In this document: positions 33,710-40,713 of the stretch, in pieces
Layout of the letters: each line of letters starts with the position of its first letter
Numbering within the stretch: the stretch's first letter is position 1
Assembly: GCA_012512455.1 (NCBI GenBank)
Contig: JAAZEF010000050.1
Coordinates: 1-40,713, forward strand
Source of the DNA: Erysipelothrix sp.
GTDB taxonomy: Bacteria; Bacillota_I; Bacilli_A; Erysipelotrichales; Erysipelotrichaceae
Direction: 5' to 3'
Length of the DNA: 40,713 bases
Notes under the pieces: generated by a model
Told to the model about the DNA's origin: nothing
The model's database searches: none
The model's input: only the letters and a program-made list of their open reading frames with translations
Made by a program: the position numbers and the translations under genes

Positions 33710-33732
33710 TCATAACGATTATCAACTTATTA

Positions 33733-33760
33733 AACTCTCACTTATGTGGGAGTTTTTTCT
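33733..33760 (+). terminator. Intrinsic terminator after rpsI
   Basis: AACTCTCAC/GTGGGAGTT stem (one T-G pair) with loop TTAT and six T. Confidence 0.9.
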
Positions 33761-33967: not shown

Positions 33968-34312
33968 ATGAGGAATAAAAAGACTTTAACTTTACTAACT
34001 CTATTTATTCTTGTTGTGGGTGTCTTTGTCTCAAGTCCAATAGTGGCACAATTTGAACAGTTAGAGCACGAGAATAGTGTGGTTTTGAATGATAAAATTT
34101 TTGTTACTGAAGTGAAATATTACACTAACATGAACATGGAAGATGTACCAAAAATTACAACAGCAGTAAGATATCAAAATGGTAAAGTTTATAAGGGTAA
34201 TATCTCTAGGACCAATCTAGTCTGGAATAGTTTAATGAAGTATTGGGTTGCAACCTATGAAGGTTATATTCACTATGATCCTAGTATAGATCCTATGGGA
34301 AATGATTATTAG
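33968..34312 (+). CDS. Small secreted or membrane-anchored protein of unknown function
   Basis: 114 residues. A signal-peptide-like N-terminus (MRNKKTLTLLTLFILVVGVF then VSSPIVAQ, cleavage possible after VAQ or at VA-Q) precedes an 85-residue mature part with no recognised domain: FEQLEHENSVVLNDKIFVTE, then TTAVRYQNGKVYKGNISRTN, then YWVATYEGYIHYDPSIDP. The mature part is rich in aromatic residues (Tyr, Trp) and has no cysteine. AAAGGAG lies 10 nt upstream. It is the first gene before an ABC ATPase and a large permease; it could be their substrate or an accessory protein, both speculative. It lacks the WxxYY-like patterns I would expect for lactococcin 972. Confidence 0.7.
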   Translation: MRNKKTLTLLTLFILVVGVFVSSPIVAQFEQLEHENSVVLNDKIFVTEVKYYTNMNMEDVPKITTAVRYQNGKVYKGNISRTNLVWNSLMKYWVATYEGYIHYDPSIDPMGNDY

Positions 34313-34340
34313 ATATTAATTATTAATTCAACATCTTCCT

Positions 34341-34368
34341 CTGCTATTAAATAGCCTTTTAATAACAG
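34341..34368 (+). repeat. Hairpin between the secreted-protein gene and the ABC ATPase gene
   Basis: CTGCTATTAAA/TTTAATAACAG form an 11-position stem with one C-A mismatch and a 6-nt loop; no T run. It may shield the 3' end of the first gene's message and so unbalance expression. Confidence 0.45.
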
Positions 34369-34389
34369 AACGAAAGTGAGGTATTCAAC

Positions 34390-35274
34390 ATGAGCCTATT
34401 GAAAGTTGACAACATAGTTAAATCCTATGGTAATCATAAAGTATTGAAGGGGATTACATTTGAAATTAATGAACCAAATATTTTAGCATTAGTAGGACCA
34501 AATGGAAGTGGTAAAACTACCCTTCTAAATGTTATGACAAATTTATTGAAGGCAGATTCAGGAACCGTTGAACTCTTAGGGATGAAAAACAGTGATCCTA
34601 ATGTGTTTAAGAAAGTAGCTTACTTAAAGGATAATACAGTCTTATATCCATATCTTAGTGGTTATGATCATTTAAAATACATTCAGAGTATGCAGAAGTT
34701 ACCAAAAGAGCGAATTGATGAAGTGGTGAATCAAATTGGTATCAGTGAGTATGTAAGAAATAAAACCTCCACCTATTCATTGGGAATGAAACAACACCTT
34801 TTAATTGCGATGTCGATTATGAATCATCCTGAGGTTTTATTACTTGATGAACCATTGACTGGTCTTGATCCAACAAGTGTCATGGATGTTCGTCTTCTAT
34901 TGAACACTTTATCAAAAAAAGGAGTGACAATTCTTTTATCATCGCATAGCTTAAGTGAGATTGATTTTATCACATCGAATATTTTATTTTTAAAAGATGG
35001 TGAAGTCATTGAGGAAGACATTAGTGAATATCAAAAAACTCGTTATCAATTAAAGGTTGCTACTAATGATTTAGAGAGGGTAATACCTCTTACTAATACC
35101 CATAAACATTTACTTATGGAAGAAAATTACTTAATATATACATCCTCTGAGCCTAATTTACAGTGGTTAATAAATACACTTCAAGAACATAATATTGTTG
35201 TAGAGGATATGTCCAAGCGTGTGGTAGGTGCCCAAGAGCGCTACGAAGCTATTTTCAAAGAAATAGAGGTCTAG
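34390..35274 (+). CDS. ABC transporter ATP-binding protein (ABC-2 exporter class)
   Basis: 294 residues. Walker A GPNGSGKTT (36-44), signature YSLGMKQ (129-135, the variant common in drug and bacteriocin exporters), Walker B VLLLDEPLTGLDP (149-161) and H-loop His186 in LLSSHSLSE are intact. The C-terminal 90 residues form an extra domain (LKVATNDLERVIPLTNTHKH onward) as in many CcmA-type ATPases. It is 3 nt upstream of the giant permease gene, so they form one transporter. Confidence 0.93.
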   Translation: MSLLKVDNIVKSYGNHKVLKGITFEINEPNILALVGPNGSGKTTLLNVMTNLLKADSGTVELLGMKNSDPNVFKKVAYLKDNTVLYPYLSGYDHLKYIQSMQKLPKERIDEVVNQIGISEYVRNKTSTYSLGMKQHLLIAMSIMNHPEVLLLDEPLTGLDPTSVMDVRLLLNTLSKKGVTILLSSHSLSEIDFITSNILFLKDGEVIEEDISEYQKTRYQLKVATNDLERVIPLTNTHKHLLMEENYLIYTSSEPNLQWLINTLQEHNIVVEDMSKRVVGAQERYEAIFKEIEV

Positions 35275-35277
35275 GAC

Positions 35278-37848
35278 ATGAGACAAATTACTTTTGAAAT
35301 CAAAAAACTTTTTAAACAAAAGGCCTTTTTACTCATCTCTTTGTTAGCCATTATTATGGGTGTTTGGAGTGTCCAAACAGTAGACAATCCCTATTTCTTT
35401 ACACCCTTAAAGGAGTATAAAACAGGAGCCATGGATGTTCTTTATAATGACATAATCCTTCCTTTGTACTCTCAAAGTATGTATCTTGATCCAGATGAAA
35501 CAAGAACCGAAATGTTTAATGAGTATTACGAATTATCCGATAGAATGCGAGAAGATGAGGACTACAATCCAGAGTGGATTGTTGGTGACATCCAACAAAG
35601 ACACAATCACGTCCTAGCAAAACAAAAGTATCTTGATGAAATGCAGTCATTTATAAAGAAGTTTGACTTATCATTTAATGAAGAATCATTGCCGGGAATT
35701 AATTGGGAGATAAAAGAAACTGAATATATTTTAGAACATGATGTTGTTTTTGAAGAAGGAAGCATGTTTAAAAATACTGGAACAACCGCTGCGATGGTTC
35801 TTCGTTATAATTTGGAGGAGTTATTAGGCATTATTCCACTGATAGTGTTATTAGTGTTAGTTACTCAATCTTTGCCTCAAGAAATTTTGAGCTCAACGGT
35901 AGTTAATCACTATCTTCAACCAAAGAAAAAGACAAGTTTAATTTTTAGTAAGTTAATCTCCTTTGGTTTACTAGCGATAAGTTATGTCGTTATAGCGATA
36001 TTAACCGTATTGATTTATAGTATCTTCTTTAAAGATGGTATAGGAAGTTTTGATTTTCCAATAAGAACTGTTGGATTTGAAAATATCATTACTCCAACAT
36101 GGTTGTATTTGATTTATGGTGTTATTACATTCTTAGTATTAAGTTTATTCGTGTTTTCAATTGCGCTATTAATTGGTGGTTTCACAAAGCGTCCCATTTT
36201 GAGTACTTTGATGACATTATTTGTAATTATTGTATTAAGTATACTTACTCAGGGCAGTGACTCCTTACAACAATGGTATAATCCATTATATGCACTCAAC
36301 TATCGAACACTGATTATGGGAACACGGTCAATTCATCATTCAGGTATGGCAATTCATGTTGAAACTATAGCTCAACGGTATAAAATTTTAATAGTTCCCC
36401 TATGCTTGAGTCTAGTATTCTTAGTAATTACCTTATATGTTTTCAGACAAGAAGGATATGTAAAATCAAAGCTATTTTCTAAAGAGTTTGAATGGAAATT
36501 CATTAAAAATGAAGCCCTTAGATTTGAAGTTAAAAAAACAGCTTCTGCTTTTCCACTCAAGATTGCGCTCTTAACCATTAGTGTCATTCTTAGTTTGATA
36601 TTTATTCAGGTCATCGTTGATGATCAAAAGCTTGTAGATGAATATTTAGGTGATAATGGACTTATTCAACTCTTAGAAGAAGAAGTTGTCAATTATGAAG
36701 AAGAGCTTAAAGAAGTTGATGAACTTCTTAATAGTGGTAGTTTATCTGAGGAAGAAGCACGGATGTATTCTAACCAAAGACAGAGTGTTTCTGACTTTCT
36801 AACCTCCTCTGAAAATACATTGAAAACCTACACTAACTTTAAACGATATTATGATGAACAAAACTCAACTTCCTTTTATAGGACAATTACTCCAGAAATT
36901 AGAAGAGCATTTAATCAAGGAGTTGAAACAGGTGATGGGTCACCTGTTGTATCACCTCAATATGTCGCAGGAAAACCAAGTGATTTTTCATTTAATGCGA
37001 CCATGGATTTTAATCAATTATTACGTGACAGAGAAATTCGTCCAATCGTAGGTACTTATAAAATCAACACAGTCTATGATGAGTTTGTTGATATTCAATC
37101 TAAAATGGAAATGGAATATTCATTCACTCCAGCAATTATCACAGGACTCAATGGATGGCATCGCTTCTCTATGAGCTATTACTTTGATATTGTGCTCATT
37201 ATGTTAGCTGTTCTATTCTTTGGTAGTGGCTTCTCATTAGAAAAGGAACAAGGTGATCATTTATCTTTCTTACTAACCCAACCTCAATCTAAAGCGACGA
37301 TTACTAAAAATAAGATTTTAGCTTCAATTCTTGTAGGTTCACTATTTGTAGGAAGCATCTTTATCTTTCTCTTTGTGTTATCAACGATTGTCGGAGGTAT
37401 TGGAAACTATGATTATCCAATTCTTGAGTATCTAAGATTTATACCTGATGCGATCAATGGACGATTTAAGCTTGGGGTCGACTATGACTTTATGAATCTT
37501 ACTACCTATTGGTTTAAGAGTATACCTTTGTTTATCACAGGACTTCTATTCTCCTTAAGTTTTACTGTCATGTGTTCTGTGATTATTAAGAACCGACTCG
37601 CATTATTGTCCTTTGTATTAATTATCTTAGCTGGTGGTTGCACACTAGCAATGAATGGTACTCTAGGAAGCTTCACTTATCTTTTACCAACTTCATATCT
37701 TCATGCGGGAGCTGTGGTTGATGGTAGTTTAAGCATTATTGCGCAGACTTCACAGTTAACCCTATGGTCTGGTTTGATAGTACTGATTGTGAGTAGTGCA
37801 CTTTGTATCTTTATAACCATTAGGTTGTCTGATAAAGTTTTAGTTTAA
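35278..37848 (+). CDS. Large ABC-2 type permease, apparent tandem fusion of two permease modules
   Basis: 856 residues. Two halves show the same plan. Half 1: a first membrane segment (about 15-33), an extracellular region (40-170), then five segments (about 177-195, 222-250, 277-304, 308-326, 370-391). Half 2 restarts with a basic patch and a segment at 424-446, has an extracellular region with an acidic coiled coil (455-520) running to about 630, then five segments (635-655, 682-710, 745-767, 770-790, 828-851). FSLEKEQGDHLSFLLTQPQS then KATITKNKILA is a clear ABC-2/NatB-like motif. The plan suggests one chain supplies both permease halves for the ATPase upstream. The transported substrate is unknown. 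The ATG has only a weak AGAGG site, overlapping the end of the ATPase gene. Confidence 0.85.
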   Translation: MRQITFEIKKLFKQKAFLLISLLAIIMGVWSVQTVDNPYFFTPLKEYKTGAMDVLYNDIILPLYSQSMYLDPDETRTEMFNEYYELSDRMREDEDYNPEWIVGDIQQRHNHVLAKQKYLDEMQSFIKKFDLSFNEESLPGINWEIKETEYILEHDVVFEEGSMFKNTGTTAAMVLRYNLEELLGIIPLIVLLVLVTQSLPQEILSSTVVNHYLQPKKKTSLIFSKLISFGLLAISYVVIAILTVLIYSIFFKDGIGSFDFPIRTVGFENIITPTWLYLIYGVITFLVLSLFVFSIALLIGGFTKRPILSTLMTLFVIIVLSILTQGSDSLQQWYNPLYALNYRTLIMGTRSIHHSGMAIHVETIAQRYKILIVPLCLSLVFLVITLYVFRQEGYVKSKLFSKEFEWKFIKNEALRFEVKKTASAFPLKIALLTISVILSLIFIQVIVDDQKLVDEYLGDNGLIQLLEEEVVNYEEELKEVDELLNSGSLSEEEARMYSNQRQSVSDFLTSSENTLKTYTNFKRYYDEQNSTSFYRTITPEIRRAFNQGVETGDGSPVVSPQYVAGKPSDFSFNATMDFNQLLRDREIRPIVGTYKINTVYDEFVDIQSKMEMEYSFTPAIITGLNGWHRFSMSYYFDIVLIMLAVLFFGSGFSLEKEQGDHLSFLLTQPQSKATITKNKILASILVGSLFVGSIFIFLFVLSTIVGGIGNYDYPILEYLRFIPDAINGRFKLGVDYDFMNLTTYWFKSIPLFITGLLFSLSFTVMCSVIIKNRLALLSFVLIILAGGCTLAMNGTLGSFTYLLPTSYLHAGAVVDGSLSIIAQTSQLTLWSGLIVLIVSSALCIFITIRLSDKVLV

Positions 37849-37861
37849 GTGACATTTTTAT

Positions 37862-39451
37862 TCAATTCAATAAGGGACTCATTGTAATGGTGAAGTCCCT
37901 TTTATTAAGGTCAATTATAAATTGTTCATTGATTAAGAGTATTCTATCCTCTAAATGGATGCTTTTGAAATTGAGATGATCGACTTCAATATCTGTCTTT
38001 AATGTTTCAATTTCTCCAGTTGGATAGACTTTAACAATGGATATTAAACTGTTATTGACTCCTAGACCATAACTGTCTCCATTTTCTTCTATGCCAATTA
38101 CTTCAACTTGAGCATAATCACGAAGATTTTCTCTTAAAATATTTTGAGATCCTTGATTAAAGAGAATGTATTTTACCATTATAGTGAGTGTGGGAGATAT
38201 TTCATCATAACCTTCTGTGAAGTGAAGACCAGTTTGAGCACTACTATGGTTGAATGTTTGAGAGTTATCGTTGAGGGTTTCAACTAAAAATTGTTGGTAA
38301 TCTTCAAGAGACTTCATTGATAGTAATAATTCAATTGTGGAGCTCTGTTTTGATGGTGTTAATAGCTGCCAATCTGAGCTAGAGATAATTGTAGAGACTA
38401 ATTTTTGTGGGATTTCCTGAGTTGTGTTTGTTTTAAGATTAAGAACTTGACTTGTTGTACTCATATGATCATCTTCAAAGAGATAATTGTTTAAGAGGTA
38501 GGGTTGTCTTTTGGTATTAAATTCAGTTAGTTGTGTTTTTGTATTGGTTTCTAAATCATGAATAATCACTAGATCATCTGTTGAATCATAAGAATAATAT
38601 TGATTGTCAAAGACTCCTAGATGATAATCAAAGACATCTGTAGGATGGATGATGTTTAATTCTTTTGTATCCAATGAGAGATTAAATAGTGCGTTTGTGA
38701 CAAAATTACCTCGGTCTCTATACCTTGCTTCTATGAAGAGTGATGTTTCATTAGGATTACTTTGTAGGGACTTAATAGTATCAAATGAGGACACCATAGA
38801 TAGACCACCCTCTAATATTTGTTGGTTTTCTTTTTCTTCTATTTCATCTTCAAGTTCTTGTATTTGATTTTCTAATGTATCTAATTCTTGTTGATATTGT
38901 ATGTTATTAGGGTCGAATTCAATTTTATTCTGTAGTTCTGACCTCTCTTGGATGAGCTTTGTAAGTTTGTGTTGTGTCTCATCACGAATGATAATAAATT
39001 CAGAAGGAAGACTTTTCATATAGCGTAGAGTGAAGGTTTCTTTTGAACCAGGGTAGCGGACACAATTAGTGATGGGATTAACATTGAAGTCACTAGTTCT
39101 AAAGGATGTTTCAATTGTCTTGCCATCGATATCATAAAAAATAACGTTATGTTTGTAGACGGGTTGCTCATTATAGCGAGATGAGGTTCTATCGACTGAG
39201 ACGACCAATCCATTGGTTTCTTCGCCAAAGAAATAGATAAGGGGAATGGTCACATAGCGTCCTAGGAAAAGGAAGAGTAGTGATGTGATAAAGAATATGG
39301 GGATAATATAATAGGGAAAAGTTATCTTGATTTTTGGCTTTTTTATCTTGTTGTAGAGTGTGATTAAGATAATTGATGTGATGACTAGAATGATGGCTCC
39401 TAACCAGAAATTATTTAGAAACCATATTAAGTAGGATAATAAAAGATTCAA
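37862..39451 (-). CDS. Membrane protein with coiled coil and large C-terminal domain, unknown function
   Basis: 529 residues; I do not recognise the family. Two membrane segments (about residues 9-31 and 47-65) are followed by a DUF3592-like beta region (TNGLVVSVDRTSSRYNEQPV then YKHNVIFYDIDGKTIETSFR T), a coiled coil at about 163-212 (ELDTLENQIQELEDEIEEKE), and about 300 residues of beta-rich, Asn/Ser/Thr-rich sequence that may be a propeller (DDLVIIHDLETNTKTQLTEF style repeats). It probably faces outward. It starts with TTG at 39451, supported by GAGGAGG 8 nt upstream. It converges on the ABC permease with only 13 nt between stops. Confidence 0.65.
   Translation of the reverse strand: MNLLLSYLIWFLNNFWLGAIILVITSIILITLYNKIKKPKIKITFPYYIIPIFFITSLLFLFLGRYVTIPLIYFFGEETNGLVVSVDRTSSRYNEQPVYKHNVIFYDIDGKTIETSFRTSDFNVNPITNCVRYPGSKETFTLRYMKSLPSEFIIIRDETQHKLTKLIQERSELQNKIEFDPNNIQYQQELDTLENQIQELEDEIEEKENQQILEGGLSMVSSFDTIKSLQSNPNETSLFIEARYRDRGNFVTNALFNLSLDTKELNIIHPTDVFDYHLGVFDNQYYSYDSTDDLVIIHDLETNTKTQLTEFNTKRQPYLLNNYLFEDDHMSTTSQVLNLKTNTTQEIPQKLVSTIISSSDWQLLTPSKQSSTIELLLSMKSLEDYQQFLVETLNDNSQTFNHSSAQTGLHFTEGYDEISPTLTIMVKYILFNQGSQNILRENLRDYAQVEVIGIEENGDSYGLGVNNSLISIVKVYPTGEIETLKTDIEVDHLNFKSIHLEDRILLINEQFIIDLNKRDFTITMSPLLN
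37872..37904 (+). terminator. Terminator of the ABC operon lying inside the convergent gene
   Basis: AAGGGACT/AGTCCCTT with a 14-nt loop and TTTTATT. It terminates plus-strand transcription but occupies the last codons of the minus-strand gene. The stem also works as a hairpin near the 3' end of the minus-strand message. Confidence 0.6.
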
Positions 39452-39556: not shown

Positions 39557-39630
39557 TTTGATGACGGTCAATTTCTTTTAGACTAATTTGAGTTAGACTA
39601 TAGTCATCAGATGAAAAGGAGATATTGAAT

Positions 39631-39891
39631 ATGACAAAAACAGTTAGTAAAAAAGAATTAATGGAAAAGTTAGAAATGTTTGTTCCGGTGGTGGCACGTG
39701 TCCATGGGCCAACACATCCTGAGTTTTATGAGGTTCAAAAAGAGTTTGAGAATATTAAGAATGAAGGTAATGTAGATCAAGCTTTTGAGAATTTAAGAGA
39801 GATCACAGATCACTATAAGGTTCCAGGTGATGTGTGTGAGAGTTATGAAGCAGTATATACCATGTTAGAACAACTCGATAAGAGTAGATAA
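39631..39891 (+). CDS. Short protein resembling part of RIC/ScdA iron-sulfur repair proteins
   Basis: 86 residues, mostly helical. The stretch EMFVPVVARVHGPTHPEFYE then VQKEFENI recalls a conserved segment of hemerythrin-like RIC/ScdA di-iron proteins, which repair iron-sulfur clusters after nitric oxide or peroxide stress. The protein is far shorter than those (over 200 residues), so it is either a stand-alone relative or a domain fragment; two His in VHGPTHPE could bind metal. ATG 39631 follows AAAAGGAG by 9 nt; an in-frame TTG at 39625 is less likely. A metal-ATPase gene starts 1 nt after its stop. Confidence 0.45.
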   Translation: MTKTVSKKELMEKLEMFVPVVARVHGPTHPEFYEVQKEFENIKNEGNVDQAFENLREITDHYKVPGDVCESYEAVYTMLEQLDKSR

Positions 39892-39892
39892 T

Positions 39893-40713
39893 ATGCAGAA
39901 ATTTATTTTAGGCCAAAAGAAAACAATCACGATTATCAGTGGTATCTTAATCGTACTAGCCTTTAGTGCCCACTTTCTCTTTGAACAAGAAAGAATTGCG
40001 GAGCTAGCCTTAATTATGGCTTCTATCTTGGGAGTGGCACCGATTGCGATTCAAGCTTATCAAGCGTTGCGAGTGAAAGTGGTGAGTATTGATGTTCTGG
40101 TGACGATTGCGGTTATTGGAGCCTTTCTTATTTGAAACTATGAAGAGTCGGCGATTGTTTCATTCTTATTTCTATTTGGTGCTTATTTAGAGTTGAGAAC
40201 ACTTAATAAAACTCGAGAGGCTATTAAACAATTAGTTGAAATGGCTCCTGAGAGTGCTTTTAAACAAATGGAAAATGGTGAGTTTGAAGAAGTAGATATT
40301 GATGATGTTGAAGTAGGAGATATTCTTCAGGTTCGTACGGGTGCGAAAGTTCCTGTGGATGGTGAAGTTATCTTTGGGACTGGCTATATTAATGAGGCGA
40401 GTATTACTGGTGAGTCAGAACTATCTACTAAAGAAATAACATCAGAAGTGTTTGCGGGTACGATTTTGGAGAATGGAACCTTACATATTGAGGCTTTGAA
40501 AGTGGGAGAGGATACTACTTTTGGTAAAATTATTGAATTGGTTGAGGAGGCACAAGATTCTAAATCTGAGGCAGAACGTTTCATTGATCGCTTCTCTCAA
40601 TACTATACTCCTGCGGTCTTAGTTTTATCCTTAATTGTTTGGTTTGTTTCTAAGAACGTGGAACTTGCTATTACTATCTTAGTTCTTGGTTGTCCTGGTG
40701 CCCTGGTGATTGG
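39893..40713 (+). pseudogene. Heavy-metal (CPx-type) P-type ATPase, interrupted by an in-frame TGA and cut by the window end
   Basis: The first 80 codons (no N-terminal metal-binding domain; membrane segments at about 12-30, 35-57, 66-80) end in TGA at 40133-40135. The same frame then continues without a stop to the window edge with clear ATPase features: SFLFLFGAYLELRTLNKTRE, the actuator VPVDGEVIFGTGYINEASIT then GES (TGES motif), and ILVLGCPGALVIG, the CPx metal-passage motif in its CPG form. Related proteins usually have Gly-Glu where this one has stop-Asn, so one G to T change (GGA to TGA) would explain it. The enzyme would export or import a metal such as zinc or cadmium. It may be inactivated or reflect a sequence error. 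The catalytic DKTG lies beyond the window. Confidence 0.8.

Follow-up and report, generated by a model that had tools for sequence, protein, structure and literature searches.

The Erysipelothrix sp. window (the whole stretch analysed, 40,713 nucleotides, which is contig C18 of a 1.37-Mb assembly with 124 contigs and 6.6% contamination) encodes a small secreted protein that very probably forms one module with the ABC ATPase and permease encoded downstream of it. Computation shows a family of such small proteins, its linkage to pumps of this kind, and divergence of the small proteins in step with the pump ATPases. We infer that the small protein acts as an antimicrobial and that the pump protects its producer, a mechanism which, taken in full, has only just under an even chance of being correct.

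A sequence-only reading had placed four genes here, and the ORF listing confirms all four at their coordinates, in the order small signal-peptide gene, ATPase and fused permease, with a convergent gene of 529 codons. The module directly follows rplM-rpsI, from which it is separated by a terminator-like hairpin (33732..33755, + strand, 10-pair stem and T tail; one found versus 0.1 expected in shuffled sequences) that marks its left border. The small gene (33968..34312, + strand, 114 aa) encodes a member of the family in alignment A6 (HMM E-value 2.7e-24, the same protein being part of the seed), the ATPase gene (34390..35274, + strand) a protein of 294 aa whose C-terminal extension, some 80 residues long, is conserved, and the permease gene (35278..37848, + strand) a protein of 856 aa in two halves. 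The gaps between them are 77 bp and 3 bp, respectively, and no terminator was found in the 77-bp gap. Promoter-like sites upstream of the module are at chance level (4 found, 4.4 expected). The convergent gene (37862..39451, - strand) encodes a membrane-anchored protein from a TTG start with an AGGAGG-type site immediately 5' of it, and probably lies outside the module.

By eye, the N-terminus of the small protein shows the residues RNKK ahead of a hydrophobic core, with a plausible cleavage site for signal peptidase behind residue 27 (IVA), so that residues 1-27 (33968..34048, + strand) would be a Sec-type signal peptide and about 87 residues (34049..34309, + strand) would be exported as the mature protein. 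That it belongs to no known family was borne out: nothing named was matched above cut-off in Pfam, NCBIfam, PDB or PADLOC (the last scanned with the window protein and two family members). AlphaFold2 run on three rows of the alignment gave a mean pLDDT of 72, and about 88-93 for residues 41-100, with strands at residues 43-53, 63-70, 73-87 and 92-103 of the precursor; the mature protein is confidently modelled as a compact four-stranded beta sheet. Among solved structures, neither Foldseek at E<=0.001 nor VIA-align at Z >=5 gives a match to the model, and the likeness to coronavirus M proteins that gives the best VIA-align score (Z 4.0) is taken as a common arrangement. The 114-residue protein was matched only in its own genome among 145 genomes of its own family and not at all among plasmids, and no publication in the open-access literature was traceable to the small-protein family, although unnamed sequence families escape text search.

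Relatives of the module were reached through the pump. A tblastn search with the permease found Cytobacillus plasmids that encode a permease matching over its full length adjacent to an ATPase 47% identical to that of the window, with a 116-residue secreted protein nearby. A scan of genome contigs with both ATPases confirmed 110 candidates, of which 80 loci were kept; four of these encode ATPases 46-51% identical over their full length, the next best being 37% identical, and at a Sporosarcina locus a 106-residue secreted protein precedes the permease. In a motif scan of 100 loci and the window, the pattern occurs only at the window's own, the Sporosarcina and the Cytobacillus loci, and since it was drawn from these three, the scan serves as a clean background. 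In the family to which Sporosarcina belongs (Planococcaceae), a five-row ATPase profile matched 38 of 250 genomes, from which 60 stretches covering the ATPase places were taken, with 20 more stretches added later; an iterated small-protein profile gathered 28 sequences, then 50 with the added stretches. The relatives of the small protein thus number about 50, nearly all of them in Planococcaceae, and their core patterns include 'NGKTYSGYIYNRG...FSGY' in those associated with fused permeases and 'GGWxGTL...YSGTVTCSGNC' in those associated with split permeases.

The sequence-only reading had left it to be seen whether the small gene travels with the ABC pair, and in many genomes it does. A gene of the small family lies within 1.5 kb of the ATPase gene at 22 of 69 places of the ATPase subfamily (the window, the four loci at 46-51% identity and 64 places from L131-L190, two duplicate loci having been dropped; one small gene in L139 serves two ATPase places), comprising 16 of 34 with fused permeases, 6 of 31 with split permeases and 0 of 4 with truncated or other permeases, versus none of 76 control ABC loci (964 kb, from other taxa and with other ABC types). 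Conversely, the small-protein profile has 46 matches at E<=2.1e-8 in the 250 Planococcaceae-family genomes, and of the 44 small genes inspected 32 have a related ATPase or permease encoded within 5 kb, most of these 32 being just upstream of the permease, although the seed of the profile came from ABC-linked genes and may favour linked matches. Thirty genomes have a strong small-protein match and 38 have the ATPase; 22 have both, versus 4.56 expected (hypergeometric P 4e-15, with kinship ignored). In the Cytobacillus family the small-protein profile alone matched 2 of 193 genomes, one the known plasmid and the other new (L216), and in both the small gene adjoins the pump; L216 has the gene order of the window, with a permease of 849 residues. 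No small gene was recognised at the other 47 ATPase places, and 12 of the 44 small genes have no related ABC gene nearby (one of them, in L199, being at a contig end), both of which count against the antimicrobial reading.

The small proteins and the ATPases have diverged together. Over 28 pairs their distances are correlated (Spearman 0.72), and none of 5000 permutations was as high, the best being 0.43. Mature small proteins have a mean identity of 0.49-0.51 where the ATPases are 55-75% identical, so the small proteins change faster than the ATPases; no other member of the paired set shares more than 27% identity with the small protein of the window. A quick tree of 75 ATPases has the loci with small genes in several parts, with 12 state changes, and the branch of the window is long and its placement unsure. 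The module of the window looks acquired, because among 145 genomes of the family to which the window belongs the ATPase profile matches just two at 1e-70, namely the window's own and one weak match that has no small gene. A two-row permease profile found only the window's own genome among 395 genomes of the class, which is no evidence of rarity given its thin seed and strict threshold. Weaker permease matches (L005-L007 and L215) were rejected as other ABC systems that have no recognised small-family gene, or as no ABC system, L006 being by eye within competence-pilus-like genes.

RpoA of the window genome is 66% identical to those of two Erysipelotrichaceae assemblies and 47-57% identical to the others matched that are named, and the assembly is evidently a mixture, since it has three different rpsI genes (on C18, C59 and C87; L217, L224 and L225) and, on C9, a second copy of the stretch with the 529-codon gene, an 88-codon gene and a P-type ATPase gene. 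The sole other genome of the genus examined (G008) has no match to the small protein, the 529-residue protein or the permease, and the stretch after its rpsI gene differs from that of the window (C121, L226). By eye this stretch encodes a 111-aa protein and a transposase-like gene, as at a variable site.

The ATPase is a member of ABC_tran (98.1 bits, Pfam cut-off 25). ABC2_membrane_2 matches the permease above its cut-off (43.8 versus 27.2 bits) in two stretches, so the permease is correctly described as fused; the other Pfam matches listed for it are ABC-2 membrane families and a chance coiled-coil match. PADLOC matches of the ATPase are those of a generic P-loop, and a defence system was rejected. 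The best NCBIfam matches of the ATPase are TIGR03740 (lantibiotic protection, 178.5 bits, cut-off 309.75), TIGR01188 and PmtC (export of phenol-soluble modulins by PmtABCD, 158.2 bits, cut-off 375), all below their curated cut-offs. The ATPase falls in the same broad branch as those of the LanFEG, PmtABCD and BcrAB-type ABC-2 pumps, whereas the permease differs from theirs in having its halves fused and large loops between the membrane helices. ABC-2 pumps of such build are, as textbook knowledge, common in peptide and antibiotic resistance, and most mature small proteins of the family are neutral or slightly acidic rather than cationic, unlike many membrane-active bacteriocins. Together with the lantibiotic-protection subunit as the best sub-threshold model, this would suit a small protein that serves a detoxification pump as its secreted accessory or sensor, capturing an antibiotic or lipid of foreign origin outside the cell, for resistance and not for warfare. 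We consider this unlikely, as tandem, fast-diverging small genes, lipoproteins and TPR/Rgg-like regulators at related loci fit a weapon and its immunity better.

Tandem small genes occur in L133 (three) and in L196, L207 and L209 (two each). In L133 (8450-12903), beside a split-permease module, the three small genes alternate with convergent genes for lipoprotein-like proteins of about 190 aa, and in L133, L136 and L139 a distance of 68 bp separates convergent lipoprotein genes from small genes (all assigned by eye from a signal and a cysteine). A lipoprotein beside a small gene would suggest a pairing of the immunity type. Regulators of the HTH-TPR or Rgg_C-like type are encoded within 1 kb of small genes in 8 loci (one member scanned from each of two clusters; Rgg_C at 19.0 bits, below its cut-off of 27). 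Lipoprotein and regulator neighbours are found in relatives only and are absent from the window. These RNPP/Rgg-like regulators, and a sub-threshold similarity of the signal sequence to the Phr type (17.3 bits, cut-off 25), might instead point to a secreted signal, or to a surface or matrix structural protein, with the pump exporting a second, unlinked product under common regulation. That reading is distinctly improbable, because the mature part is predicted to be a folded beta domain and not a short processed pheromone, and because divergence in step with the ATPase suggests direct contact or a target in common.

Two further observations concern the surroundings of related modules. A membrane protein of 180-200 aa recurs beside fused-permease modules (L216 9098-9697, L183 2916-3449, L173 2933-3487, and P0001, which is L013 1692-2234; P0001 and the L216 protein were likened to the cluster by eye), with a C-terminal domain that is PH-like by eye, and the P0001 and L173 proteins have no Pfam match. 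Genes for an LXG-domain protein and an HNH nuclease are downstream of the Cytobacillus plasmid module (L013 7493-9218).

Layouts in tandem, paired with lipoproteins or adjacent to regulators are common for bacteriocin and immunity genes. Traits of the family that were counted as bacteriocin-like are the Sec-type signals, tandem copies, convergent lipoproteins and regulators, along with carriage on a plasmid in Cytobacillus, patchy spread and the faster change of the small protein. Against the antimicrobial reading, beyond the unlinked genes, the charge of the mature proteins, the absence of lipoprotein and regulator neighbours from the window and the low identity of its small protein to the others, no activity is known for any member of the family and no known bacteriocin family matches it.

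The best functional parallel, and the nearest worked example, is mediterrocin, described as a 114-residue Sec-type beta protein whose gene cluster also encodes an ABC protein and a protein of putative immunity function (PMC12345188). Lactococcin 972 and mediterrocin are described as having a Sec-type precursor of about 110 residues, a beta-rich mature protein and, encoded next to it, a permease and an ATPase to which immunity is ascribed (PMC12345188, PMC8538875), and the window module appears similar in its precursor of about 110 residues, its predicted beta-rich protein and its adjoining permease and ATPase. It differs in that its permease is of the ABC-2 type and that of lactococcin 972 is of the DUF1430 type with seven transmembrane segments. 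No lactococcin-type model of Pfam or NCBIfam is listed at E<=1 for 23 members of the small family, and the fold of lactococcin 972 (2LGN) is not among the matches listed by Foldseek or VIA-align. The LCI antimicrobial peptide of Bacillus (2b9k) is, like the modelled small protein, a small antiparallel beta sheet (Foldseek rank 44, E 1.5, TM 0.57 on the target, rmsd 5.5); its Pfam family (PF12197) is not listed for the same 23 members, and kinship was rejected at the level of sequence (hhalign probability 0.7%). LCI is not known to have a dedicated pump. The JUQZ-1/BLB8 bacteriocin of Brevibacillus is described as small, secreted and made with a signal peptide (PMC11747845), as the members of the small family are predicted to be. 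Its model (NF053514) reached E<=1 for 5 of the 23 members, the lowest E being 0.0037, with at best 13.5 bits among 8 members scanned (cut-off 40), and kinship was rejected because the similarity is below cut-off and falls mostly on the signal peptide.

The preferred reading is an antimicrobial protein accompanied by a pump for self-protection, on account of the bacteriocin- and immunity-like arrangement of genes in relatives and the example of mediterrocin. The small protein would leave the cell via Sec and act outside it, where its most likely role is that of a bacteriocin-like antimicrobial aimed at related bacteria. The ATPase and fused permease would together make up an ABC-2 pump for the protection of the producer, clearing its membrane or envelope of the small protein or of the damage done by it. 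The locus had been read as possibly one of secretion or immunity. For the pump, immunity is a reasonable guess; since the small protein carries a Sec-type signal of its own and would not need the pump to leave the cell, a secretory role of the pump is less likely. More broadly, and with somewhat less than an even chance of being right, the family may be a new one of Sec-secreted beta-sheet antimicrobials, each with a co-evolving ABC-2 self-protection pump whose permease is fused or split, and under TPR/Rgg-like control. Some of its lineages would have paired lipoproteins, and from a centre in Planococcaceae it would have reached distant Bacillota such as the organism of the window. If so, it adds a secreted antimicrobial family that sequence libraries have missed and a pump conferring immunity on the producer, and the search profile and gene order would then help to find further members. 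Should the antimicrobial reading fail, a small secreted protein that diverges along with one ABC subfamily would still offer a clear test case for what pumps of this kind act on outside the cell.

The 529-residue protein is probably not part of the module. It begins with two long hydrophobic helices and has, in a low-confidence model (mean pLDDT 40), a coiled coil at about 158-221 and then a C-terminal domain; the beta-rich domain and outward orientation that were first described are tentative. It has no Pfam or NCBIfam match above cut-off, and the idea that its N-terminus is DUF3592 was dropped for want of a Pfam match. Residues 71-158 resemble part of a protein of a Polymorphobacter plasmid (37.5% identity, E 2e-9); the latter (L012 1985-2923) is an alphaproteobacterial hypothetical protein that shares this 88-residue stretch and belongs to no Pfam family.

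That all four genes make up one system, with the 529-residue protein as surface partner, might be suggested by the convergent position of its gene 13 bp from the permease gene and by its conservation under selection between two copies. The second copy, on C9, is 76% identical over residues 1-235, and the differences by codon position (43/17/80 over 235 codons) indicate a real gene under selection. Such a system is very unlikely: apart from a partial match in the unrelated Polymorphobacter protein, the 529-residue protein is absent from 168 other loci (tblastn, E<=1), so it is not near the module in any of these, and it has no match in the genome-contig collection or in the 144 other genomes of its own family. 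The C9 copy, moreover, keeps the same right-hand neighbours (an 88-residue protein and a P-type ATPase), its left side being off the contig, which ends before the place where the ABC genes would come. Of the link once proposed for the four genes, the part that joins the small protein to the ABC pair is real and recurs across many genomes, and the part that joins the 529-residue protein to them is not supported.

The 88-aa protein (39625-39891 in the window), which is kept beside the 529-codon gene and the P-type ATPase gene in both copies (C18 and C9), has a sub-threshold similarity to the FeS-repair protein RIC/ScdA. The frame of the P-type metal ATPase, which starts at 39893 in the window, is interrupted by an in-frame TGA (40133-40135); the copy on C9 (L008 1147-3000, 617 aa) is open at this position, and the TGA is either a mutation or an assembly error.
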